Assembly (NCBI RefSeq): GCF_019711415.1
Contig: NZ_JAIGNJ010000001.1
Location: forward strand, 303,001 to 367,000
Direction: 5' to 3'
DNA length: 64,000 bases
DNA from: Qipengyuania vesicularis
Lineage (GTDB): Bacteria > Pseudomonadota > Alphaproteobacteria > Sphingomonadales > Sphingomonadaceae
In this document: positions 6,804-29,604 of the stretch, in pieces
Numbering within the stretch: position 1 is the first letter of the stretch
Layout of the letters: each line of letters starts with the position of its first letter
The notes under the pieces: generated by a model
The model's input: only the letters and a program-made list of their open reading frames with translations
Database searches by the model: none
What the model was told of the DNA's origin: nothing
Program-made: the position numbers and the translations under genes

Positions 6804-8201
6804 TCACCTGTGCCCTGCAGGCCTTGGAGCGGGGCCATGCGCATCGCCCATCCGCCGCAGGCGCTCGACCTTATTACTGAGCGGCTGCCAGTCGTCCCGC
6901 TCGTCGATTGCCGACCAGATTGCCTCGACCTCTTCGATCAGCATGCTTTCGGGTTCGCCTTCTGACCAATATTCGTGGCTGTCTTCGACCGGTGTGTAGT
7001 CCGACAGGATCGGCGTTAGGCTCTCCTCAGCGTTCCGACCCCCGCGCAGCCGGTAGAAGAATGCGTCCGGCTGATCGCCACTCTCTGCCATCGCAGCCTC
7101 GCAGGCTCCCACTAGCCTGGCGTCCTCTTCGAAACCACGGCTTTGGACGCCCAGCCGCCAGCACCAGCGCCGCCCGACTGCTGCCATATATAGCGGACCG
7201 AAACGCTCCATCGCGGCGATCAGCGGCGGCGCATCGGCAATCAGGCGCAGGGCTATGGCGAACTGCCCGCAATTCCAGTGCAATGCCTCGGGCTGGCGAC
7301 CGAAGGCATAGAGCCCTGCGTGGTCGAAATAGGCGGCGGTGAAGCCCGGTTGCCATTGGGGCAGGAAGCGCCAGGGACCGTAGTCGAAGCTTTCGCCAGA
7401 GATATTCATGTTGTCCGTGTTGAGCACCCCGTGGACGAAGCCCGCGACCATCCAGCTTGCGGCGAGATCGGCGAGCCGTTCGACGACGAGATGCATGAGC
7501 TGGACTGCCGGTTCATCGCGTCCGGGCGCGTCCTCGGGTGGGGGAGGGCCCGGGAACTGTTCGAAGCAATAGGCGACTAGCTGCTCCATATGCGCTTTCT
7601 CCTCCAGCGCGAGCAGGCGCTGGAAGGTCCCGATCCTTATGTGGCCGTGGCTCAGCCGGGTCATCACGGCGGATCGTGTGGGCGAAGGTTCGTCGCTGCG
7701 CATCAGTTCTTCGCCGGTCTCGGTAATCGAGAAGGTCTTCGACGTATTCACGCCAAGCGCTTCGAGCATTTCGGTTGCGAGGATCTCGCGCACTCCGCCT
7801 TTCAGTGTCAGCCGCCCGTCGCCATCGCGGCTCCACGGAGTCTGTCCCGAACCTTTGGTGCCGAGATCGAGCAGCCGTCCGTCGCCATCGCGTAGCTGGG
7901 CGAAGAGAAAGCCGCGCCCGTCACCGATCTCGGGATTGTACACGCGGAACTGGTGCCCGTGATAGCGGAGCGCGAGGGGGCGAGGGAGGTTTCCCTCCAG
8001 AGGCGCGAACCTGCCGAAGTGTTTTGTCCATTGCTCGTCGGTCAGGTCGCCGAGCCCGATGGCGGTCGCCCAGCGATCGTTGCGAAACCGGGTTTGTGTG
8101 CGCGGGAAGGGAGCTGCATCAACCGGATCGCCCAGCCAATCGGCGAGATCGAGGATCGGTGTATCGGGGCGATATTCGGCGGGTTCTGGTGCGCTTGGCA
8201 T
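6804..8201 (-). CDS. selO: protein adenylyltransferase SelO (YdiU)
   Basis: This 465-residue protein is a SelO-family pseudokinase, which transfers AMP from ATP to protein hydroxyl groups. Hallmarks are YHGHQFRVYNPEIGDGRG in the N-terminal part, the LGTKGSGQTPWSRDGDGR nucleotide loop, and HGVLNTDNMNISGESFDYGPW in the catalytic region. The length is close to E. coli SelO (478). The ATG at 8201 begins the conserved region, and longer in-frame extensions only run into the divergent hydrolase promoter. Family members respond to oxidative stress in bacteria; targets in this organism are unknown. Confidence 0.92.
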   Translation of the reverse strand: MPSAPEPAEYRPDTPILDLADWLGDPVDAAPFPRTQTRFRNDRWATAIGLGDLTDEQWTKHFGRFAPLEGNLPRPLALRYHGHQFRVYNPEIGDGRGFLFAQLRDGDGRLLDLGTKGSGQTPWSRDGDGRLTLKGGVREILATEMLEALGVNTSKTFSITETGEELMRSDEPSPTRSAVMTRLSHGHIRIGTFQRLLALEEKAHMEQLVAYCFEQFPGPPPPEDAPGRDEPAVQLMHLVVERLADLAASWMVAGFVHGVLNTDNMNISGESFDYGPWRFLPQWQPGFTAAYFDHAGLYAFGRQPEALHWNCGQFAIALRLIADAPPLIAAMERFGPLYMAAVGRRWCWRLGVQSRGFEEDARLVGACEAAMAESGDQPDAFFYRLRGGRNAEESLTPILSDYTPVEDSHEYWSEGEPESMLIEEVEAIWSAIDERDDWQPLSNKVERLRRMGDAHGPAPRPAGHR

Positions 8202-11178: not shown

Positions 11179-12528
11179 ATGAGCCAGACTATCGCACCTT
11201 CTTTCCTGCGTACTTCGCTGCTGGTTACCTGCGCGCTCGCGATGACCGCCTGCAGCGGCGGCCTGTTTGGCGGCGGTGACAAGAAGGATACGCCGACTGT
11301 CGGCAATCGTACGCCGATCCTTTCGCGGATCGAAAGCGGGGCGAAGGTCGACCCGGCACTCGCAGGAACGCAGGTCGTGCTTCCAGCCGAGCGGTCGAAC
11401 GACACTTGGGGCCAGGCCGGCGGCACGGCGAGCAAGAGCTACGGCCACCTCGCGCTCGGCGCTGCTCCCACGCAGGCTTTCTCGGTACAGATCGCCGGGG
11501 CCAGCAACAAGCGGCGCCTCGGCGCGGCTCCGGTGATCGGCGGCGGCAAGCTCTTTGCGGTCGGCACGGATGGCGAGGTAACGGCATTCGACGCGCAAAC
11601 CGGCTCACGCAACTGGACCTACCAGAGCGAACTGACCGACGATACGCGCCCCTCGGCCTTCGGCGGCGGCGTGAGCTTCGACAATGGCAGGCTCTACGGC
11701 ACCGATGGTGCGGGCAATGTCTACGCCCTCGATGCGAATACGGGAGCGGAGCTGTGGAAGGTCAAGCCGGGCGGTCCGCTGCGCGGGTCTCCGACCGTGG
11801 CGTTCGGCAATGTCTTCGTGATGTCGCAGGACAATCAGCTCTTCGCGATCCGCTCCACCGACGGCACGCCCGTGTGGCAGGAATCGGGATCGACAACCAT
11901 GGCCGGCGTGTTCGGCGTAGCGGCTCCTGCTGCTGGGAATGGCACGCTTGTCGCCGGGTATACCTCGGGCGAACTCGTCGCCTATCGCTACGAGAACGGC
12001 CGCAGCCTGTGGGCCGATGCCCTCGCGCGGACCTCGATCTCGACGCAGGTCGGCGCGCTGAGCGACATCGACGCCGATCCGATCATCGACAGCGGACAGG
12101 TCTTCGCACTCGGCCAGGGCGGGCGCATGGCGGCCTATGAACTGGTCACCGGCCAGCGCCTGTGGGAACTCAACGTGGCAGGGATCAGCACGCCCGCGAT
12201 TGCCGGCGACTGGATTTTCGCTCTCACCGATGATGCGCGGATGATGGCCATCGCCCGAACCACCGGCAAGGTTCGCTGGCTGACGCAGATGCCGCGTTTC
12301 CGTGACGAGGAAGACCGCAAGGGCCCGATCTTCTGGCAGGGTCCGGTCCTCGCCGGGAACCGGCTGTGGGCAGTCAACTCCGAAGGCGAGATCTATGCGG
12401 TGAGCACGGGCGAAGGCTCTGCATCGCTGTTCCGCGAGCTCAAGGAATCGATCAGCCTCCCGCCGGTCGTCGCGAACAACACGCTCTACGTCCTGGACGA
12501 CAGCGGCACGATTACCGCTTTCCGCTAA
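11179..12528 (+). CDS. bamB: outer membrane assembly lipoprotein BamB
   Basis: This 449-residue lipoprotein of the BAM complex helps insert beta-barrel proteins into the outer membrane. The signal peptide ends in an A-M-T-A-C lipobox with Cys at residue 25; the -3 residue is Met rather than the more common Leu. The rest has repeated PQQ-type beta-propeller blades, for example GKLFAVGTDGEVTAFDAQTG and GRLYGTDGAGNVYALDANTG. The ATG at 11179 is preceded by GAAACGGAAA and comes 20 bp after the yfgM stop, so the pair forms one operon. Confidence 0.9.
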   Translation: MSQTIAPSFLRTSLLVTCALAMTACSGGLFGGGDKKDTPTVGNRTPILSRIESGAKVDPALAGTQVVLPAERSNDTWGQAGGTASKSYGHLALGAAPTQAFSVQIAGASNKRRLGAAPVIGGGKLFAVGTDGEVTAFDAQTGSRNWTYQSELTDDTRPSAFGGGVSFDNGRLYGTDGAGNVYALDANTGAELWKVKPGGPLRGSPTVAFGNVFVMSQDNQLFAIRSTDGTPVWQESGSTTMAGVFGVAAPAAGNGTLVAGYTSGELVAYRYENGRSLWADALARTSISTQVGALSDIDADPIIDSGQVFALGQGGRMAAYELVTGQRLWELNVAGISTPAIAGDWIFALTDDARMMAIARTTGKVRWLTQMPRFRDEEDRKGPIFWQGPVLAGNRLWAVNSEGEIYAVSTGEGSASLFRELKESISLPPVVANNTLYVLDDSGTITAFR

Positions 12529-12848: not shown

Positions 12849-14219
12849 TCAGAAACTGTATTTGTAGACGCGCGAAATATCGCCCTGCCATTCTCCGTGA
12901 TAGCGATCGAGCAGGACCTGCGCCGGGACCTTGCCGCTGGCGACGATCTCGTCGAGTGTCTCTAGGAAGCCGGTCTCGTTGTCGCCCGAGGAATTGAGCC
13001 GTCCGCGCGAGGCAAGGCCGCTGCGGGCGATCGCGAGGACTTCCTTTGCTAGGTCATGCAGCTTGCCGCCGCCAGGGATCGGTGCATCGAGCGCCAGCCT
13101 GGGAACCGCATTGCGCAGTTCCTCGCGCTCTTCCATCGTCCAGTGCTTGACGAGATCCCATGCAGCATCGAGCGCATCCTGCTCGTAAAGCAGGCCGACC
13201 CAGAAGGCAGGCAGCGCACAGATGCGGCTCCACGGTCCACCATCGGCACCGCGCATCTCAAGGAAGCTCTTCAACCGCACTTCGGGGAAGGCGGTCGAGA
13301 GGTGGTCCCACCAGTCGCTCTCGGTCGGTTTCTCGCCGGGGAGCACCGAAAGCTTGCCCTCGAGAAAGTCCCGGAAACTGAGGCCTGCGGCGTCGATGTA
13401 TTTCCCTTCGCGGAAGACGAAATACATCGGCACGTCGAGCATGTAGTCGACGTAGCGTTCGTAGCCGAAACCATCCTCGAACACGAAAGGCAGCATCCCG
13501 GTGCGATGCGGGTCCGTATCGCTCCAGATATGGCTGCGGTAGGACAGGTAGCCGTTGGGCTTGCCCTCGGTGAAGGGCGAATTGGCAAACAGCGCGGTCG
13601 CCAGAGGCTGGAGCGCGAGGCCGGTGCGGAATTTCTGCGCCATGTCGGCTTCGCTCGAATAGTCGAGGTTCACCTGGATTGTGCAGGTGCGCAGCATCAT
13701 GTCGAGGCCGAGATTGCCCACGCGCGGCATGTGCCGCATCATGATCTCGTAGCGACCCTTTGGCATGATCGGCAGTTCTTCGCGGGTCTTGTCGGGCCAC
13801 ATGCCGAGGCCGAGGAAGCCGACATTGTTGCGCGATCCGATTTCCTTCACCTGCTGCAGGTGCCGCCCGGTCTCGGCGCAGGTCTGGTGCAGGTTTTCGA
13901 GCGGAGCGCCCGACAGTTCGAGTTGTCCGGCCGGTTCGAGGCTGACCGTGCCGTCATCGCCGCGCATGGCGATGACCTTGCCGTTCTCCTCCACCGGCTC
14001 CCAGCCATACTCGCGCAGCGAGAGCAGGATGTCCCGTATGCCGCCCTCTTCCTCATAGGAAAGCGCGCGGTGTTCCTTGCAGCAATAGACGAGTTTCTCG
14101 TGCTCAGTCCCGATCCGCCAATCTGACTTGGGCTTCTCGCCCTTCTGCATCGGCGCGACCAGCTGGTCGCGGCTTTCGATGATGGGATCAGCGTCCCCCG
14201 AGGCCTCTCTCGTGCTCAT
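12849..14219 (-). CDS. gshA: glutamate-cysteine ligase (plant/alphaproteobacterial type)
   Basis: This 456-residue enzyme performs the first step of glutathione synthesis, ATP-dependent joining of glutamate and cysteine. It belongs to the plant-like GCS2 lineage of alphaproteobacteria, not the E. coli type. Recognisable segments are WRIGTEHEKLVY near residue 34, LEPAGQLELSGAPL near residue 95, MMRTCTIQVNLDYSSEADM-type substrate-binding sequence, and LEMRGADGGPWSRICALPAFWVGLLY. It lies 40 bp after rsmE on the same strand. Confidence 0.95.
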   Translation of the reverse strand: MSTREASGDADPIIESRDQLVAPMQKGEKPKSDWRIGTEHEKLVYCCKEHRALSYEEEGGIRDILLSLREYGWEPVEENGKVIAMRGDDGTVSLEPAGQLELSGAPLENLHQTCAETGRHLQQVKEIGSRNNVGFLGLGMWPDKTREELPIMPKGRYEIMMRHMPRVGNLGLDMMLRTCTIQVNLDYSSEADMAQKFRTGLALQPLATALFANSPFTEGKPNGYLSYRSHIWSDTDPHRTGMLPFVFEDGFGYERYVDYMLDVPMYFVFREGKYIDAAGLSFRDFLEGKLSVLPGEKPTESDWWDHLSTAFPEVRLKSFLEMRGADGGPWSRICALPAFWVGLLYEQDALDAAWDLVKHWTMEEREELRNAVPRLALDAPIPGGGKLHDLAKEVLAIARSGLASRGRLNSSGDNETGFLETLDEIVASGKVPAQVLLDRYHGEWQGDISRVYKYSF

Positions 14220-16775: not shown

Positions 16776-17396
16776 ATGTGCAATCTCTACCGCATGACCA
16801 AGAACAAGGACGAAGTCGCCGCGTGGTTCGATGCGGTGAACGAGCTTAGCGGGGCGAATTTCGGTGAGGAAGTTTACCCGGGCTATCCCGGCGCGGTTGT
16901 AGCGGGTGGAAAGCTGAAGCAGATGAGCTGGGGCTTCCCGCTGGTGATGAAGGGCAAGAGTGGCCAGCCATTGAAGCCCAAGCCGGTCAACAATGCCCGC
17001 ACCGACAAGCTCGACAGCTTCTTCTGGCGCTACAGCTTCGAGGAACGCCGCTGCCTGATCCCCGTCACCGCATGGGCAGAGGCGGAAGGGCCGAAGGGCG
17101 GAAAGACCCGCAGCTGGCTCTCGCGGCCCGATGCGGAGCTGTTCGCCGTTGCCGGCGTATGGCGCGACAGCGAGGAATGGGGCGCGTGCTATTCCATGGT
17201 CATGACCGATGCGGGAGGCCTCGCGAAGGAAGTGCACACGCGGATGCCCGTGCTGCTTGCAAAGGAAAGCTGGGATCAATGGACCGGCGGCACGCCGGAA
17301 GAGGCGTTTGCGCTCTGCCGGCCATGGGAGGGCGAGCTTGCGCTCGATCGGACGAAGGTTCCGTGGTCGGGCAAGGGGCAGGTGGGGCTGCTGTAG
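16776..17396 (+). CDS. SRAP family protein (YedK/HMCES-like)
   Basis: This 206-residue SOS-response-associated peptidase domain protein belongs to a family that crosslinks to abasic sites in single-stranded DNA through its N-terminal Cys and protects them. The family hallmarks are visible: Cys at position 2 (MCNLYRM), NNARTDKL for DNA contact, LIPVTAWAEAEG with a catalytic Glu, and VHTRMPVLL with the conserved His. The length is close to that of YedK. trmL starts 5 bp after its stop, so they are probably co-transcribed. No LexA box was seen upstream. Confidence 0.9.
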   Translation: MCNLYRMTKNKDEVAAWFDAVNELSGANFGEEVYPGYPGAVVAGGKLKQMSWGFPLVMKGKSGQPLKPKPVNNARTDKLDSFFWRYSFEERRCLIPVTAWAEAEGPKGGKTRSWLSRPDAELFAVAGVWRDSEEWGACYSMVMTDAGGLAKEVHTRMPVLLAKESWDQWTGGTPEEAFALCRPWEGELALDRTKVPWSGKGQVGLL

Positions 17397-21298: not shown

Positions 21299-21429
21299 GC
21301 TGAGCGGTAGACCGACGAAACAACGCGTATCGACGGGCGATGGTATGCCCGCTTATCTGTCCAGGTTTTCTAAAGTGGTCGTTCTGCTTCCCACCCCAAT
21401 AGCCGACAGTGCGGCGATCTACCGAATTT

Positions 21430-23008: not shown

Positions 23009-24067
23009 TCAGTTTTGATCGATGGCCGAGCGGCGGAAATCCGTAGGAGTTGTGCCGGATTCCACGCGAAATGCGCGGTTGAAGGTCGGCAGTGAATTAT
23101 AGCCAAGATCCATCGCGATCGTCAGCACGGGCAGGTCCACCCGCGCCGGATCGGCCAGCACCTCGCGCGCTTCGGCGATACGATGGCGGTTGAGGAAGGC
23201 CGAGAAATTGCGATAGCCGAGCCGCTGGTTGATCAATGCGCGCAGCCGGTGCTCGGGCGTGTCGAGATGGTCGGCAAGTCCCGTAATGGTAAGGCCGGGG
23301 GTGCGATAGAAGCCGTCCGCCATGGCTTGCTCGAGCTTGTCTTTCAGGACCTTCTCGCTGGGCGAAAGCGACTCACCAGAATGTTCTGGCGCGCCATCGT
23401 CGACTGTCTCGACCAGCAACACCGAATCGGTCTCGAGCAGGGCGTGGCCGGCGAACAGCGTCAGCGCAAAAATCAGCACCGCGTTGACCAGTTGCACGGC
23501 GGGGTGGGCGATCGCCTGTCCCATGACCAATTCGTAGGTCAGGATGCCTCCCGCCTGCGCGGCGACCAGCAGAGGCAACCAGAGACGGATCAGGCGGCGC
23601 TTTTCGATCAGGTCGTCTGCCCGGTCCGACAGTGCGACCCGGACGAGGTCGACGATCAGGACCAGCGAGAGAATGTGGATCAGATAGAAGCCGAAGGGAT
23701 GACCGATCCAGCTGCCCACTGCGCTTTCCGTGGGGATGAAATTGCCAGAGAACCAGCTGAAGACGAGCAGCGCGGCGCTCCCGCCGATGACCCATGGTGG
23801 CGGGGTGCGCTCGAACAGATTGCGCGCGAACACCCAGATCCAGAACGGGGTGAAGACCGAAAAGAGGTCGAGAAGCCGTTTCAGCCCCCGCTGCCCATCG
23901 GCGATCAGCTCGGAAGAATTGAACAGGTAAGCGACCGCGCCAAGCAACAGGCCGGAAAGGCTGAGCTTGATTGCCGGCCTAGCGCGCCCTGCGACCAGCA
24001 ATAGCAAAAGGAGCATGGCTGCGCCGGCGGTCGCGATACGCAGGGTCGTGTCGAGCTGCTCGATCAT
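23009..24067 (-). CDS. membrane-anchored AraC family regulator
   Basis: This 352-residue protein has about six or seven transmembrane helices over residues 1-215. After a short acidic linker comes a C-terminal AraC helix-turn-helix domain (about residues 245-347) with LTITGLADHLDTPEHRLRALIN and IAMDLGYNSLPTFNRAFRVESGTTPTDFR. The membrane part presumably senses a lipid-soluble or membrane signal. It overlaps the helicase stop as ATGA, so the two are translationally coupled. The sterol-desaturase-like gene 110 bp downstream on the same strand is a natural candidate target. Confidence 0.85.
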   Translation of the reverse strand: MIEQLDTTLRIATAGAAMLLLLLLVAGRARPAIKLSLSGLLLGAVAYLFNSSELIADGQRGLKRLLDLFSVFTPFWIWVFARNLFERTPPPWVIGGSAALLVFSWFSGNFIPTESAVGSWIGHPFGFYLIHILSLVLIVDLVRVALSDRADDLIEKRRLIRLWLPLLVAAQAGGILTYELVMGQAIAHPAVQLVNAVLIFALTLFAGHALLETDSVLLVETVDDGAPEHSGESLSPSEKVLKDKLEQAMADGFYRTPGLTITGLADHLDTPEHRLRALINQRLGYRNFSAFLNRHRIAEAREVLADPARVDLPVLTIAMDLGYNSLPTFNRAFRVESGTTPTDFRRSAIDQN

Positions 24068-26823
24068 ATGTCGCTGTCTGCCGCTTCCTCGTGCGTTGCG
24101 CCAGCCCCGGTTTCGCCTGCGCCAATCCCCCGCTCGACCCGTCTCAGCGCTTCGTCGAGCGTTACGCGGTGGACGGGCGTGCCTTCGGGGAAGGCGGAGA
24201 GCAGGCGGCTGGGGAAGGCGGGCGAGAGGACGACGAAATGGCCTGCGTCGTCCTTGCTGCGGATCAGGCGGCCGAATGCCTGTGCCAGCCGCGCGCGGAT
24301 GATGCGGTCGTCATAGCGTTGGGCACCGCCCGGTTCTTCGGCAGCAGCGGCGCGGCGGGCGCGGTGGAGGATGGTCGGGCGCGGCCAGGGCACGCTTTCC
24401 ATGACGACACAACGCAACGAGCGACCCGGCACGTCCACCCCGTCGCGCAGCGCGTCGGTGCCGAGCAAGCTGGCGCGCGCATCGTCGCGGAAGATATCGG
24501 TTAGCGTGCCGGTGTCGATCGGGTCGACGTGCTGCGCGAAGAGCGGCAGGCCCGCCCGCGCGAGCCGGTCGGCGATCCGGCCATAGACTGCGCGCATGCG
24601 GCGGATGGCAGTGAAAAGGCCGAGCACGCCGCCATCGCTCGCCTCGATCAGCCGCGCATAGGCCCCCGCGAGCGCCGGGATATCGCCGCGCTTGATATCG
24701 GTGACGATCAGCACCTCGGCGCGGCCCGCATAATCGAAGGGGCTGTCGGCCTGCGTGGTCTTCGGCAGCAGTTCGAGATGCGGCGTGCCGCTCTTCGCAA
24801 TGGCGTGGTCCCAGTCGGCTCCGCCCTCGTCGCGGTCGGTCAATGTCGCGCTGGTCAGCATGACGCCATGCGCCGGCTCAAGCACGACCTTGGCAAAGGG
24901 CTTCATCGGGTCGAGCCAATGGCGGTAGAGCCCGACATCGAATTCGCGCGCATCGTTGCGGTCGACCGCAAGCCAGTCGACGAATTCCGGGTCGGCCGGT
25001 CCGCCGAGGCGCGAGAGCAGCGCTTCCCATGCCGCGATCAGGTCGATCCGCCAGGCGAGCGAGTGGCGCGCACCTTCGATCCGCGCGCGGCCCTGTCCGT
25101 CGAGCCAGTCGGGCGCGTCCTCGATGACTGCCTCCAGCCGGCCTGCGAGCTTCAGCAGTGGCGTGCGGATCTGGGCGAGCGCCTGTGCCGCAGTCCCCGC
25201 CGCCTCGACCAGTTCGCCGGGAAGCTGGGAGGTCTCGGTCTCGATGCCGTAGCCCGCTTCCTGCCCGTTCTCGTCGCGCGCATAGGTGACAGCGCGGACC
25301 TGCGCGAGCAGCGCTTCGAGCGGTCCCGATGGCGCGCCCTCCGCCAGCCGTCCCAGCCAGCCATCGGAGGGAAGGGCATCGGCCGCTTCGATGGCCGCCT
25401 CGACCGCATCGCCGCCAGCCTCGTCATAGCTCGCCACATCCGCCAACCGCGCTGCCAGCCCGCGCCGCCTTCCGCGCGAATTGCGCTCAGGCCCGATGAT
25501 CCAGCGGCGGAGTTCGATCGCTTCCTGCCCGGTCAGCGCCGCGGAAAACGTGCTGTCGGCCGCGTCGAAGACATGGTGGCCCTCGTCGAACACGATGCGG
25601 GTCGGGCGGCTGGCGAGATCGCGCCCGCGCGCGGCGTTGACCATCACCAGTGCATGGTTGGCGATGACGAGGTCGGCCTGCGCGGCATTGCGCGCGCTGC
25701 GCTCGATGAAACACTTCCGGTAATGCGGACAGCCTGCATAGACGCACTCGCCGCGCTGGTCGGTCAGCGCTGCGATCCCCCGCTTGCGAAAGAGCGTGCC
25801 GAGCCAGCCGGGCAGATCGCCGCCGATCATGTCCCCATCCTGCGTATAGGCAGCCCAACGCGCGACGAGATGCGCGAGGATCGCCGGACGACCCGCGAAC
25901 CCGCCTTGCAGCGCATCTTCGAGGTTGAGCAGGCAGAGATAGTTCTCGCGCCCCTTGCGCACCACCACGGGCGGCGACCCGTCGGGCCGCTTCTCGGGCC
26001 ATGCGCGCCTGCTTTCGCCGCGCAGCTGGCGCTGGAGGTTCTTGGTATAGGTGGAAACCCAGACCGTGCCGCCCGATTGTTCGGCCCAGAGCGAGGCAGG
26101 CGCGAGATAGCCCAGCGTCTTGCCGATCCCCGTGCCCGCCTGCGCAAGCAACACATGCGGCCGTTTCTGCCGGTCGCGCGGGCCGAAGACATGGCCAGCG
26201 CCGCGCGCGAACATCCGCTGCCCCTCGCGCCGCTCCGCCCCTTCGCCGGTCAGGCTTTCGAGATGGGCCTCGATCTCGGGCTCGTCGATCAGTACCTGCG
26301 CAGGTTGCGGGCGCTCGGGCGTATCTTCCCATTCCGGCAGGCGAGTGAATAGCCATTTCTCGGCCTTCTCGGGCTTCCTTACATGGGGGCTGAGGACATT
26401 GGCCCAGGGCCACCGCAGCCGCGCGAGCGATTGCAGACTCGACCACGCGCCCTCGCGCTCCGCCCAGTCCTCGCTCTCGCAAGTCGCCACCAGAGCACCC
26501 GCCGCCTTTTGCAACAGGAGAGGAACCTCCGCATCGTCCTCCGGCTCGGCCAGATCGAGCGCATCGGCAAGCCCCTTGGGCGTTGGCACGCAGAACTTGG
26601 CGGGATGGACAAAGGCGAACAGTTCCAGCAGGTCGAGCCCCGACAAGTCCGGATAGCCCAGCCTGCTCGCCACAAGCGGCGCGTTCATCATCAGCAGCGG
26701 CGTATCCGCCGCCGCCATCACCGCCTCGCCCTTCGAACACCCCCGCGTCGACCCATTGGCATCGCGCAGCCATGTGCCAGCGTGGCTTGCGTGCAGGGAG
26801 GGAAGAGGGAGAGGCTGGCTCAC
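24064..26823 (-). CDS. DinG/Rad3-type ATP-dependent DNA helicase
   Basis: This 919-residue superfamily 2 iron-sulfur helicase has Walker A G-T-G-I-G-K-T near residue 230, a DEGHH box in VFDEGHHVFD, and an intervening Cys region (ECVYAGCPHYRKC) fitting the [4Fe-4S] cluster of XPD/DinG proteins. C-terminal motif VI appears as AQAFGRLIR. The N-terminal 200 residues are extra compared with E. coli DinG and look family-specific to alphaproteobacteria. The start could be any of several Met codons; MSQPLP is the longest. A likely role is resolving unusual DNA structures during repair. Confidence 0.88.
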   Translation of the reverse strand: MSQPLPLPSLHASHAGTWLRDANGSTRGCSKGEAVMAAADTPLLMMNAPLVASRLGYPDLSGLDLLELFAFVHPAKFCVPTPKGLADALDLAEPEDDAEVPLLLQKAAGALVATCESEDWAEREGAWSSLQSLARLRWPWANVLSPHVRKPEKAEKWLFTRLPEWEDTPERPQPAQVLIDEPEIEAHLESLTGEGAERREGQRMFARGAGHVFGPRDRQKRPHVLLAQAGTGIGKTLGYLAPASLWAEQSGGTVWVSTYTKNLQRQLRGESRRAWPEKRPDGSPPVVVRKGRENYLCLLNLEDALQGGFAGRPAILAHLVARWAAYTQDGDMIGGDLPGWLGTLFRKRGIAALTDQRGECVYAGCPHYRKCFIERSARNAAQADLVIANHALVMVNAARGRDLASRPTRIVFDEGHHVFDAADSTFSAALTGQEAIELRRWIIGPERNSRGRRRGLAARLADVASYDEAGGDAVEAAIEAADALPSDGWLGRLAEGAPSGPLEALLAQVRAVTYARDENGQEAGYGIETETSQLPGELVEAAGTAAQALAQIRTPLLKLAGRLEAVIEDAPDWLDGQGRARIEGARHSLAWRIDLIAAWEALLSRLGGPADPEFVDWLAVDRNDAREFDVGLYRHWLDPMKPFAKVVLEPAHGVMLTSATLTDRDEGGADWDHAIAKSGTPHLELLPKTTQADSPFDYAGRAEVLIVTDIKRGDIPALAGAYARLIEASDGGVLGLFTAIRRMRAVYGRIADRLARAGLPLFAQHVDPIDTGTLTDIFRDDARASLLGTDALRDGVDVPGRSLRCVVMESVPWPRPTILHRARRAAAAEEPGGAQRYDDRIIRARLAQAFGRLIRSKDDAGHFVVLSPAFPSRLLSAFPEGTPVHRVTLDEALRRVERGIGAGETGAGATHEEAADSDI

Positions 26824-26934
26824 CCCGCAGCGTTAGAACACAAACGGAACGCGGGGCAAGCGACGAGGGTCGGTTTTCCTCGCGGCTATTTCGGCTTTCG
26901 AGAACAAGTTCGTCAGCCTAATTTGTCCGACTTT

Positions 26935-26964
26935 GGGTGGAAAGCTGCCACTTGCGATACTAGG
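26935..26964 (+). promoter_or_regulatory. shared leader element copy 1
   Basis: GGGTGGAAAGC (26935-26945), 13 bp, then ACTAGG (26959-26964), ending 8 bp before the ATG at 26973. Read as a promoter it is GGGTGG-N17-TACTAG, which would start transcription at or next to the ATG. An identical arrangement precedes the next small gene. Confidence 0.5.
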
Positions 26965-26972
26965 CTAGGATT

Positions 26973-27257
26973 ATGTCGCTCGGTTCGTTCGCTCATAAAA
27001 TGGCTCGCTTCAACCGAGGCTATGGTCGAATTTTCATACCGATTTGGCTCGCATTCGTTGGGTTCTTCACGATTGCTGCTGTCGCTGACTCAATCTTGGA
27101 GTTTGGATGGGGTTACGACTGGAGCGATGTAAAAATCGGCCTGATAATGTTCGGCTGTGGGATCGCTTTTTGGTTCGTCTGGCAAGGCGGGCTCAGACTG
27201 AGCGAGTGGTTCAACGAGACCATGTTTGGACCTGACCCGACAAAGAACGACGATTGA
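26973..27257 (+). CDS. orphan small membrane protein A
   Basis: This 94-residue protein has two clear membrane segments (about residues 20-42 and 54-72) and a charged tail ending PDPTKNDD. I recognise no family. Its third codon positions are less GC-rich than the neighbours, and the surrounding stretch is AT-richer. No ribosome site is visible; instead a promoter-like element ends 8 bp before the ATG, suggesting leaderless translation. It sits in an island of about 1.1 kb between the helicase and lysS with a second, similar small gene. Confidence 0.55.
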   Translation: MSLGSFAHKMARFNRGYGRIFIPIWLAFVGFFTIAAVADSILEFGWGYDWSDVKIGLIMFGCGIAFWFVWQGGLRLSEWFNETMFGPDPTKNDD

Positions 27258-27328
27258 GTTCGAGGTAAGGTCGCTAGCCGCCCTTCTGTTTCTGGCACAT
27301 CGCTAGCTCGGTGAAAGCGACTTCAGAG

Positions 27329-27358
27329 GGGTGGAAAGCGGACGCCGCCAAAACTAGG
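27329..27358 (+). promoter_or_regulatory. shared leader element copy 2
   Basis: GGGTGGAAAGC (27329-27339), 13 bp, then ACTAGG (27353-27358), followed 8 bp later by the ATG at 27367. The distance from the first G to the ATG is 38 bp, exactly as in copy 1, although the 13-bp spacer is different in sequence. Confidence 0.5.
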
Positions 27359-27366
27359 TTTGCTGC

Positions 27367-27645
27367 ATGATTCCGCCCCATCGTAACGAAGAAGCGCTGA
27401 GGAGCTGGCGCTGGATAGCCCAAGTCTACGTTTGGCTGAGCGTAGCGATATGTATCCTTGCGGCGTTTTCGCTAGGACTCTTCTCGCAAGCCGAGAATGC
27501 GAAACTAGTGGGAGCGGGTCTCTTGGTTTTTGCCGGTATTGGAGCCGCCTTCGCCCGAGCACTTCCTAATATCCAGAACGCCCGCTGGTGGCATTGGGCG
27601 TTGGGAGCTCTGCTGATTTCTCCTGCTGTGCTCTTGGTTTTTTAG
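27367..27645 (+). CDS. orphan small membrane protein B
   Basis: This 92-residue protein has three hydrophobic segments (about residues 16-38, 46-64 and 74-92), and the last reaches the C-terminus (ISPAVLLVF). No family is recognised, and it is not obviously similar in sequence to small membrane protein A. As with protein A, there is no Shine-Dalgarno sequence, and the matching leader element lies 38 bp upstream. Base composition is again lower in GC. It could be recently acquired or species-specific. Confidence 0.5.
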   Translation: MIPPHRNEEALRSWRWIAQVYVWLSVAICILAAFSLGLFSQAENAKLVGAGLLVFAGIGAAFARALPNIQNARWWHWALGALLISPAVLLVF

Positions 27646-27963
27646 TCCGCAATCGGGTCGTTAGCTGAACAGCTGCTTTCGGGTGCCGTCCCATCCCAAC
27701 CTCCTGACACGCCCCTGTCCTACTTCGGCTGCGCACAGTATCTGCTGCCGTATGGCAATCCCCGCTTCCCTGTTCATGCCCGCTCTCCATCGGAGGAAAG
27801 GTGACACATTTCGCACCAAGGGTGACACTATTGCCGCTACAGCGACAGGTGACGGCTTTTCCGCCGAGACCGTGTTCCATGTGTTCCATCCTGTCGGGCT
27901 TGCCTGCGCGCGCTCCAACACTTCGCACTTGCAACACGCCCGGCAAGCGGCAAGAGGGTTCGC
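27646..27963. other. 318-bp gap before lysS with short repeats
   Basis: No convincing gene lies in this stretch. It holds two copies of GGTGACAC (27800-27807 and 27821-27828), a related GGTGACGG (27848), and a tandem 9-bp repeat GTGTTCCAT (27872-27880 and 27881-27889). These precede lysS by about 75-165 bp and may belong to its leader. Short frames through this region lack a ribosome site and protein-like composition. Confidence 0.5.
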
Positions 27964-29604
27964 ATGAGCATGACCGACCTGATCGAAGCCGCACGAGTGT
28001 CCAAGGCCTGGCCCTTCCAGGAGGCGCAGCGGCTGCTCAAGCGCTACCCCGATGGGGTGAAGACCGCCAAAGACGGAAGCACCTCGCCGGTCCTGTTCGA
28101 AACGGGCTACGGCCCCAGCGGCCTGCCGCATATCGGCACCTTCCAGGAAGTACTGCGCACCACGCTCGTGCGCCGCGCGTTCGAGGCGATGATCGGGGCG
28201 AAGCCGGAGGACGGCAAGACGCGCCTCGTCGCCTTCTCCGACGACATGGATGGTCTGCGCAAGGTGCCCGACAACGTGCCCAACCAGGCGCTGCTCGAGG
28301 CGAATTTACACCTCCCGCTCAGCCGTGTGCCCGACCCGTTCGAGAAGGGCCACGAGAGCTTCGCCGCGCACAACAACGCCATGCTGCGCGCCTTCCTCGA
28401 CCGCTTCGGTTTCCAGTACGAGTTCATCGCGGCAAGCGACATGTACAATTCGGGCCGTTTCGACGACGCGCTGCGCCAGGTCCTGCGCAAGAACCAGGCG
28501 ATCCTCGACATCATGCTGCCCACGCTGCGCGAGGAGCGGCGCAAGACCTACTCGCCGGTCCTGCCGGTCAGCCCGCAGACGGGCCGCGTCCTGCAGGTGC
28601 CGGTAGAGGTGGTGGATGCCGAAGCCGGCACGATCCGCTTCACCGACGAGGACGGCACGGTGATCGAGCAGTCGGCGCTGGGCGGAATGTCCAAGCTGCA
28701 GTGGAAGGTCGACTGGGCGATGCGCTGGTATGCGCTGGGCGTCGATTACGAGATGTATGGCAAGGATCTGACCGACAGCGGCGTGCAGTCGGGCCGGATC
28801 GTCAAGGCACTCGGCGGACGCAAGCCTGAAGGCCTGATCTACGAGATGTTCCTCGACGAGAAGGGCGAGAAGATTTCCAAGTCGAAGGGCAATGGCCTCT
28901 CGATCGAGGAATGGCTGCAATATGGCAGCGAAGAGAGCCTCGGCTTCTACATCTTCCCCAATCCCAAGAGCGCCAAGCAGCTTCACGTGGGTGTGATCCC
29001 GCGCGCGGTCGACGATTACTGGCAGTTCCGCGAGCGGCTGGCTGAGCAGGAGCTCGACAAGCAGCTTGGCAACCCAGTGTGGCATCTTGCGCGCGCCAAT
29101 GGCGGTTTTGAGGGCAGCGAGGCTCCGGGTGCGGGCGACAGCCTGCCGGTGACTTATGGTCTGCTGCTGAACCTCGCCAGCGTGCTGGGAGCTGAAGCGA
29201 GCGAGGAGAGCCTGCGCGATTACCTCGCCAGCTATATCGGCGCGGACAGGATCGGGCCGGAGCTGGACGTTCTGATCGGTACGGCGGTTGCCTACACGCG
29301 CGACTATATCGTGCCGACTCTGTCCAAGCGTGCGCCTGCGGCGAACGAGGCCGAGGCATTGAAAGCTCTCGATGCCTATCTCGCCACTGCCGATGCGGAG
29401 ACCACCGCCGAGGACTTGCAGACCGAAGTCTACGAGATCGGCAAGCGCGAGGAGTATGGTTTCGAATCACTGCGAGACTGGTTCAAGGCGCTCTACCAGA
29501 CGCTGCTTGGGAGCGATCAGGGCCCCCGAATGGGCAGCTTTATTGCGCTTTACGGAATTGAAAATAGCCGCAAGCTGATCGCCGAAGCTTTAGCGCGTGC
29601 GTGA
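27964..29604 (+). CDS. lysS: lysyl-tRNA synthetase, class I
   Basis: This 546-residue enzyme charges tRNA-Lys. It is the class I (archaeal-type, LysK-like) form with a Rossmann catalytic domain, not the class II enzyme of E. coli. The HIGH-type motif is G-P-S-G-L-P-H-I-G at residues 50-58, and the KMSKS-type motif is K-I-S-K-S-K-G-N. Class I LysRS is normal for alphaproteobacteria. The start is ATG AGC ATG; either Met is possible. Confidence 0.95.
   Translation: MSMTDLIEAARVSKAWPFQEAQRLLKRYPDGVKTAKDGSTSPVLFETGYGPSGLPHIGTFQEVLRTTLVRRAFEAMIGAKPEDGKTRLVAFSDDMDGLRKVPDNVPNQALLEANLHLPLSRVPDPFEKGHESFAAHNNAMLRAFLDRFGFQYEFIAASDMYNSGRFDDALRQVLRKNQAILDIMLPTLREERRKTYSPVLPVSPQTGRVLQVPVEVVDAEAGTIRFTDEDGTVIEQSALGGMSKLQWKVDWAMRWYALGVDYEMYGKDLTDSGVQSGRIVKALGGRKPEGLIYEMFLDEKGEKISKSKGNGLSIEEWLQYGSEESLGFYIFPNPKSAKQLHVGVIPRAVDDYWQFRERLAEQELDKQLGNPVWHLARANGGFEGSEAPGAGDSLPVTYGLLLNLASVLGAEASEESLRDYLASYIGADRIGPELDVLIGTAVAYTRDYIVPTLSKRAPAANEAEALKALDAYLATADAETTAEDLQTEVYEIGKREEYGFESLRDWFKALYQTLLGSDQGPRMGSFIALYGIENSRKLIAEALARA

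Follow-up and report, generated by a model that had tools for sequence, protein, structure and literature searches.

Two small genes of Qipengyuania vesicularis as probable cassettes of an integron-like gene-capture system

The two small genes that lie between a helicase gene and lysS in Qipengyuania vesicularis are most plausibly a two-cassette mini-array of an integron-like gene-capture system, a reading to which we assign, from sequence comparison, a probability of about 0.77. We consider that this system captures gene cassettes much as integrons do and yet stands outside them, judging by its IntI scores, the missing extra domain of its integrase, and the lack of folding and of R boxes in its sites. 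It is probably a so far unrecognised integron-like system, with a short recombinase of its own and with sites that appear to double as promoters. The features in the window, i.e. the whole stretch of 64,000 nucleotides that was analysed, are as follows.

24064..26823, minus strand: helicase gene (ORF), left neighbour outside the element
26920..26953, plus strand: attI-like core at the left end of the insertion, read from the sequence as AATTTGTCCGACTT, spacer TGGGTGG and AAAGCTGCCACTT
26938..26943, plus strand: putative -35 box TGGAAA of gene 1, within the recombination core (-35 to -30 from the ATG)
26961..26966, plus strand: putative -10 box TAGGCT of gene 1, for a leaderless start at the ATG (-12 to -7)
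26973..27257, plus strand: cassette gene 1, ORF of a 94-aa protein
27258..27346, plus strand: ~90-bp cassette site between both cassettes (covariance model E 4.9e-21; nhmmer match of 27269-27340 to model positions 11-82)
27332..27337, plus strand: putative -35 box TGGAAA of gene 2, as far from the ATG as its counterpart in gene 1
27355..27360, plus strand: putative -10 box TAGGTT of gene 2, again at the ATG-relative position seen in gene 1
27367..27645, plus strand: cassette gene 2, ORF of a 92-aa protein
27646..27682, plus strand: terminal half-site after the last cassette, TCCGCAATCGGGTCGTTAGC with a short hairpin and a T-run (nhmmer, model positions 1-37)
27964..29604, plus strand: lysS (ORF; 40 of 41 genomes have a homologue at E<=1e-100), neighbour on the right and outside the element
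21386..21396, minus strand: possible decayed core (TGTCGGCTATTGGGGTGGGAAGC) beside the tetR gene, found by motif search; membership uncertain

Both cassette proteins are membrane proteins by the call of the first-pass annotation and by inspection, and a Pfam scan gave no hit to either, barring one match at E 0.37. An Rfam scan of 26800-28000 returned three matches, all far below their gathering scores. The site between the two cassettes has a degenerate left arm and, in the alignment, the right core GGGGTGGAAAGCGGAC; half-sites like the one after gene 2 end several arrays. The neighbours are a gene which we take to be a DinG-like helicase and, presumably, the class I lysyl-tRNA synthetase gene. 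A helicase gene lies within ~1.5 kb upstream of lysS in 7 of 25 loci of the genus, host included. In four relatives that have no cassettes here, the gap between them measures 72, 128, 248 and 332 bp; it comprises 790 bp of other sequence in G018 and 1140 bp in the host. In G002 it measures 1048 bp and is occupied by another cassette, which likewise begins TTTGGGTGGAAAGC and whose 207-aa ORF runs in the opposite direction to lysS. Terminal half-sites upstream of lysS were also seen by eye in G006 and G007 and, more diverged, in G019. The gap seems to be a repeated target of different cassettes.

The element had first drawn attention through a shared leader, GGGTGGAAAGC-N13-ACTAGG, reported ahead of both genes with 38 bp from its first G to the ATG. 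Both copies are present, at 26935 and 27329, and the distance is exactly the same for the two start codons, at 26973 and 27367. The leader GGGTGGAAAGC is the right end of the ~90-bp recombination site. The motif GGGTGGRAAGC has four copies in the window, where shuffled sequence would lead one to expect 0.06. One of these is the inverted GGGTGGGAAGC at 21386-21396, which had also been reported and is real; its left side is core-like (TGTCGGCTATT), and nhmmer detected no site there. An additional plus-strand copy, absent from the first-pass annotation, starts at 16904 inside a 206-aa ORF (16776-17396), and nhmmer found no recombination site around it. Across the host genome, GGGTGGAAAGC with at most one mismatch occurs 114 times, compared to 47 for the reversed control, and 11 copies are exact. 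The ACTAGG part of the motif fared differently from the rest: the 30-mer with up to three mismatches was found 25 times genome-wide, below the 51 of the control, and a wider meaning of ACTAGG was rejected on this count.

A consensus from 105 copies of the site reads about AATGTCCGCAATCGGGTCGTTAGCTGCCCGTCCGCTCCTGGCACATCGCTAGCTCGGTGAAACCGTCACGAGATGGGTGGAAAGCGGACATT, and conservation falls to background level right outside the ~90-bp block. We collected 185 full copies in loci fetched from 20 genomes of the genus, by which we mean Qipengyuania and relatives. A search of 60 genus genomes, one per species, with a sequence-only covariance model found at least one site at E<=1e-4 in 46 of them, with 0 to 44 sites per genome. 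In the order, sites were found at E<=1e-8 in 23 of 297 genomes and 9 of 77 genera, all in one family (f1). A pattern scan of GTDB gave 38 stretches, from Qipengyuania, Erythrobacter, Aurantiacibacter, Croceicoccus, Pontixanthobacter and Blastomonas as well as from uncultured Sphingomonadaceae and one MAG labelled Salinicola. The search of a phage collection yielded no site and that of a plasmid collection two records, an 83% match in pWH01K from an Erythrobacteraceae strain and a 42% match in Methylobacterium. In the stretch 1782-4747 of L321, the pWH01K site lies between two GNAT acetyltransferase genes and has a gene annotated as aminoglycoside phosphotransferase family and a zeta toxin family gene as neighbours. 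As a separate observation, locus L055 contains inter-cassette segments of ~400 bp (7343-7760 and 11387-11800) that start site-like and end in a GGGGTG core; the two are alike by eye and a third of this kind starts at 13092. Such segments may represent a longer version of the 90-bp site.

Sites form arrays with a pronounced common direction. Among adjacent sites 100-2500 bp apart, partial sites included, 147 pairs point the same way and 5 opposite ways. The 147 small cassettes enclosed by adjacent sites have a median length of 504 bp, of which the longest ORF spans a median of 85%. There are 32 runs of at least three sites, in 16 genomes, and the longest comprises 19 sites in 11.4 kb (L098, G028); since loci were picked for site richness, these counts describe arrays and not genomes. 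Cassette genes lie in both orientations relative to the site, 93 antisense and 48 sense, with 6 cassettes lacking an ORF of 50 aa. A scan of 109 cassette proteins matched 58 Pfam families at E<=1e-4, and the 25 of these 58 that were listed include PF00144 (3), amidohydrolases (3), TIR domains (2) and single transporters; PADLOC reported 11 families on cassettes, several of them TIR-type.

A block of this size with inverted ends (AATGTCCGC / GCGGACATT) and background conservation outside, in copies scattered through genomes, could also be a MITE- or REP-like dispersed repeat, with the genes between copies swapped by ordinary homologous recombination. The strong orientation bias and the tight packing of single genes speak against such a repeat, which we consider unlikely, as do the limits of shared cassettes and the placement of the core beside a recombinase gene, both described below.

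Homologues of the two window genes were searched for in 99 genomes, host included. Nine were positive for gene 1, with 96% identity in G044, 94% in G005 and more distant relatives in six others; six were positive for gene 2, with 98% in G044, 97% in G034 and three weak matches. These homologues lie at unrelated loci, in G044 on two different contigs. Each is followed 3' by a block of ~80-90 bp, and in G044 and G034 such blocks stand in rows with small genes between them. The first-pass annotation had read the leader as a dispersed promoter that gives birth to species-specific small genes. Proteins 94-98% identical at other places in other species contradict this as a full account, as do the extent of the conserved block, which is 90 bp long and two-ended, and the fact that some cassettes encode known families. 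The lower GC content invoked in its favour is real, at 53.7% for 26935-27645 against 63.0% for the window, and cassettes in general have a median of 53.0% (n=147), compared to 56-59% in six host loci with cassettes included and 63% in the window. Even together with the start-codon spacing and the lack of Shine-Dalgarno sequences reported below, which also fit a promoter origin, this leaves the birth of new genes from a leader extremely improbable.

Shared cassettes are moreover closer to each other than the genomes that carry them. Ten cassette pairs between genomes had at least 70% mutual coverage and 80-99.7% identity. With the xerC region as background, identities were 78.8% for G000-G044, 78.6% for G000-G034, 80.2% for G034-G038 and 94.4% for G034-G044, whereas the best cassettes of the same genome pairs reached 96.1%, 95.7%, 98.8% and 99.7%, respectively. 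Those shared by the host with G044 and G034 correspond to the DNA of the gene 2 cassette, and two further G034-G038 cassettes were 88% and 80% identical. Since cassette identity is above that of the xerC region, single cassettes have moved recently.

The limits of these cassettes tend to fall at the cores. For gene 1, DNA identity of the host with both G044 and G005 begins at 26935, the first G of GGGTGG, and that between G044 and G005 begins 12 bp upstream of GGGTGG. We compared the limits of eight pairs at >=88% identity side by side. Four of them had a sharp left limit at TGGGTGG; in two others the limit was blurred because the upstream sites resemble each other, and a one-base shift left the remaining two unscored. 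At the right-hand side, six of the seven scored pairs lost identity no more than ~20 bp into the site, and in the seventh (G034-G044) the whole site was carried along with the cassette. That single genes are bounded at cores with unrelated flanks is not what homologous exchange between dispersed repeats would lead one to expect. Our reading of this pattern is that a site contains two cores, which form its left and right ends. Joining of the cassette ends would then give AATGTCCGCAA-TNGGGTSG-AAAGCGGACATT, a symmetrical core like that beside the integrase gene.

A candidate for the enzyme is a short tyrosine recombinase near arrays, which came to light when 12 genomes were searched with PF00589 and which a regular-expression search for tyrosine recombinases near arrays had missed. 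Counted from a well-placed Shine-Dalgarno sequence it has 210 residues. It is without the usual N-terminal domain, and its catalytic residues R61, K89, H158, R161, H184 and Y193 align with those of XerD. Two integrases scored 70 and 69.5 bits with PF00589 (cut-off 27.1); the best sequence match in the PDB was XerD (1a0p, E 2.7e-6), and the FimB/FimE-type family NF007371 of NCBIfam gave a weak match (E 3.5e-4) to one of the two proteins. With the IntI model TIGR02249 they reached only 22 and 19 bits against a cut-off of 265. Across genomes, IntI above the cut-off was found in none of 60, in a search that lacks a positive control since none of the 14 control genomes exceeded the cut-off either; below it, matches occurred in all 60 genomes and all 14 controls. 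Nine integrase homologues showed no insertion next to HxxR relative to XerD.

The layout of integrase, attachment site and one-directional array of small, mostly unknown genes is that of an integron, and one might suspect a true integron or CALIN whose IntI and attC sites have both diverged. Besides the low IntI scores and the missing insertion, the sites themselves argue against this. Their fold z-score was -0.45 (sd 1.02; 40 of the 105 sites), a value that addresses folding and not recombination, and the RNAalifold consensus energy of 18 sites was -1.22 kcal/mol, giving no support to an attC-like hairpin. Such a hairpin had looked attractive in single-sequence folds of two copies and was dropped when it was lost across copies. 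The R boxes of integrons are RYYYAAC and GTTRRRY; by eye, neither is present in the 105-site consensus. Furthermore, IntegronFinder is reported to have detected no integron in Erythrobacter litoralis HTCC 2594 (PMC5770381). A true integron is therefore, in our estimate, a highly improbable description of these loci.

The intact integrase gene of the host (G000:C4:297922-298551) is followed by the core AATGTCTGACTATGGGTGGAAAGCGGCCATT. At the sequence level, an integrase gene with a core at a fixed distance is found in about half of the integrase loci. GGGTGG follows the gene in 14 of 25, fragments included, compared to 3.9% of random 150-mers, at 74-75 bp (7 loci), 78-80 bp (6) or 47 bp (1) from the last sense codon; within 150 bp it is absent from the other 11. 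This fixed distance speaks against a dispersed repeat. Among 13 such cores, the one after the host integrase is the best match to the attI-like core of the window, with a modest 30/48. In G028 a truncated integrase gene and a core stand directly ahead of the 19-site array, and sites within ~4 kb of the integrase also occur in G031, G027, G033 and G034. No full site was found near the clade B integrase loci of G030, G041 and G020, near four loci at 75-77% identity, or near most clade A loci, where clade A denotes ~88% or more identity to the G028 integrase and the clades, assigned in part of the genomes, reflect identity and not a tree. Several clade B-like integrases are truncated or broken in genomes that still have sites (G028, G034, G033, G036, G052). 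Two integrase copies in another alphaproteobacterial genome (L268 and L278, G418) share ~60 bp downstream and then diverge, as expected for one attachment site with different cassettes.

Contigs end within ~210 bp of the integrase gene in G000, G045 and G052. In the host, three of the 11 exact copies of GGGTGGAAAGC (C1:67, C3:135, C4:298626) are no more than ~150 bp away from a contig end, which points to an assembly interrupted by a region rich in repeats; the ends concerned fall at the integrase core or at sites (G000:C4:298552-298702, G000:C1:1-150, G000:C3:1-150). C4 stops ~150 bp downstream of the integrase gene, where it reaches the first cassette, and C1 and C3 start with a site or next to one. 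The main array of the host is probably missing from the assembly.

In the mechanism we propose, the 210-aa Xer-like tyrosine recombinase would recombine palindromic cores with the arms AATGTCCGC / GCGGACATT and the spacer TNGGGTSG. One core, just 3' of the integrase gene, would be attI-like, and each cassette would terminate in a ~90-bp site with cores of this kind, which would let cassettes insert serially in the same direction. The helicase-lysS gap would be one of the secondary places on the chromosome into which cassettes can also go. Outward -35 boxes (TGGAAA, TTGCGG) would sit at both outer ends of a site, so that genes 37-39 or 41-43 bp from the anchor are expressed leaderless in either orientation. 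Recombination by this integrase, like the position of the crossover, is what we infer.

We lean towards the 210-aa integrase as the recombinase of the cassette system, and hold this estimate down for lack of genome-level co-occurrence. The integrase or fragments of it were present at E<=1e-20 in 36 of 60 genomes: in 29 of the 46 with sites and in 7 of the 14 without (p 0.54), and in 16 of 22 genomes with at least five sites and 20 of 38 with fewer (p 0.17), with clades A and B pooled and fragments counted. At this threshold it is absent from G038 (44 sites), G017 (20) and G044 (16). The absence of significant co-occurrence would also suit a MITE- or REP-like repeat. In such array-rich genomes, either the arrays have outlived the integrase, as in CALINs on the integron side, or other sites are the targets of clade A, or a different enzyme is at work. 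That enzyme could be XerC/XerD working on dif-like modules, as on the pdif modules of Acinetobacter plasmids, and array-rich genomes without the short integrase, e.g. G038, indeed keep two XerC/XerD-like proteins. The pdif sites alternate in orientation around modules, unlike the sites here with their 147 to 5 ratio, no dif-like 28-bp sequence was noticed in the site by eye, and a dedicated integrase with its own core exists. Taken with these differences, we regard the action of XerC/XerD as very unlikely.

Turning to expression, we measured the distance from the site to the start codon in 132 distinct cassettes of the genus, taking first ATGs as starts, some of which may be misplaced. In sense genes the distance from GGGTGG peaks at 38 bp (7 of 49, with 11 at 37-39), so that the spacing noticed in the window goes beyond chance, and in antisense genes the distance from GACCCG peaks at 42 bp (13 of 83, with 21 at 41-43). 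Genes within 46 bp of a site are a minority (45 of 132). None of these 45 has an SD-like 4-mer, compared to 20 of the 87 others (Fisher p 0.00016), and TANNNT occurs at -12..-7 in 13 of the 45 compared to 7 of the 87 (p 0.0037). In a set of 27 genes, T, T and G stand at -35, -34 and -33 in 63, 63 and 70%, and A at -11 in 70%. Because of the ATG peaks and the lack of Shine-Dalgarno sequences near the site, it is likely that near-site genes are leaderless and have their -35 box inside the site, and transcription would start at the ATG. Both ends of the site appear to bring an outward -35 box, TGGAAA on the right and TTGCGG on the left, the -10 box lying in the cassette. For the window genes, the promoter proposed at first, GGGTGG-N17-TACTAG/AACTAG, is better replaced by TGGAAA with TAGGCT or TAGGTT. 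What is supported of the earlier idea is that the genes are leaderless, that the promoter comes partly from the leader and that the unit is dispersed and mobile; that it is a promoter only finds no support.

Compared with integrons and CALINs, the system has in common a tyrosine recombinase gene with an adjacent attachment site (the attI-like core at 47-80 bp in 14 of 25 loci), one-directional arrays of single-gene cassettes with sites, and stray cassettes elsewhere. It differs in its 210-aa Xer-like integrase, which has no N-terminal domain of the usual kind and scores far under the cut-off for IntI, in sites that show no fold signal and seem to hold promoter boxes, and in cassette genes of both orientations, 93 antisense to 48 sense. 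With XerC/XerD-dif and pdif it shares an Xer-like catalytic domain and a short palindromic core with a probable 7-8-bp spacer, whereas its dedicated integrase, other arms, single site orientation and arrays of up to 19 sites set it apart. FimB/FimE-type invertases are likewise about 200 aa long and consist of the catalytic domain only, but act on a single inverted switch instead of directly repeated sites with gene arrays.

A published survey describes integrons as entirely absent from Alphaproteobacteria; in it, the mark of IntI is an additional domain around patch III, and that of attC is its folding (PMC9668308). A review of their natural history lists the phyla with integrons and gives possible origins of attC clusters without IntI (PMC8618304), and in a classification of tyrosine recombinases the sections concerned mention no cassette group of this kind beyond integrons (PMC8138268). 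No description of this cassette system was found in the portion of the literature covered, with most subscription journals and all preprints outside its scope.

Integrons are the textbook platform for gene capture. A working equivalent on another recombinase would mean that cassette capture evolved at least twice; it would explain why marine Sphingomonadales have a pool of small unknown genes, and its 210-aa recombinase would be a compact one that uses short sites. We give even odds to the stronger proposal of a second, independently evolved integron class, with a short Xer-like integrase, double-stranded palindromic cores, a downstream attachment site and outward-promoter ends. If it is right, a captured gene would be expressed whichever way it lies, and one simple answer to the problem of expressing captured genes is suggested, namely that the recombination site carries the -35 box.

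Relatives of the integrase extend beyond the genus. They were found at E<=1e-30 in 17 of 387 genomes of Alphaproteobacteria, host included, and on 410 of 72,556 plasmid records, of which 317 show less than 60% identity, with Sinorhizobium, Pantoea, Escherichia, Vibrio and Klebsiella among the carriers. In loci of other Alphaproteobacteria and in seven plasmid loci inspected by eye, a GGGTGG core 3' of the integrase was clear only in Sphingopyxis and Croceicoccus; with this and the search of the order, arrays are documented for one family only. If the second-class proposal is right, relatives on hundreds of proteobacterial plasmids (E. coli, Klebsiella, Vibrio) would make the system widespread. 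The E. coli plasmid NZ_CP025845.1 (L324, 2900-3660) encodes a 49% identical integrase, with AATGTCTGC before and AGCGGACATT after the gene. The arms that flank it are those found in Qipengyuania, AATGTCYGC / GCGGACATT being kept even on this plasmid, and plasmids of Klebsiella and Shigella likewise give hits at this identity. Many proteobacterial genomes contain repeats of the type AATGTCCGCTTT..AAAGCGGACATT, annotated there as small proteins starting MSAFDP, and these may be cores of related systems.
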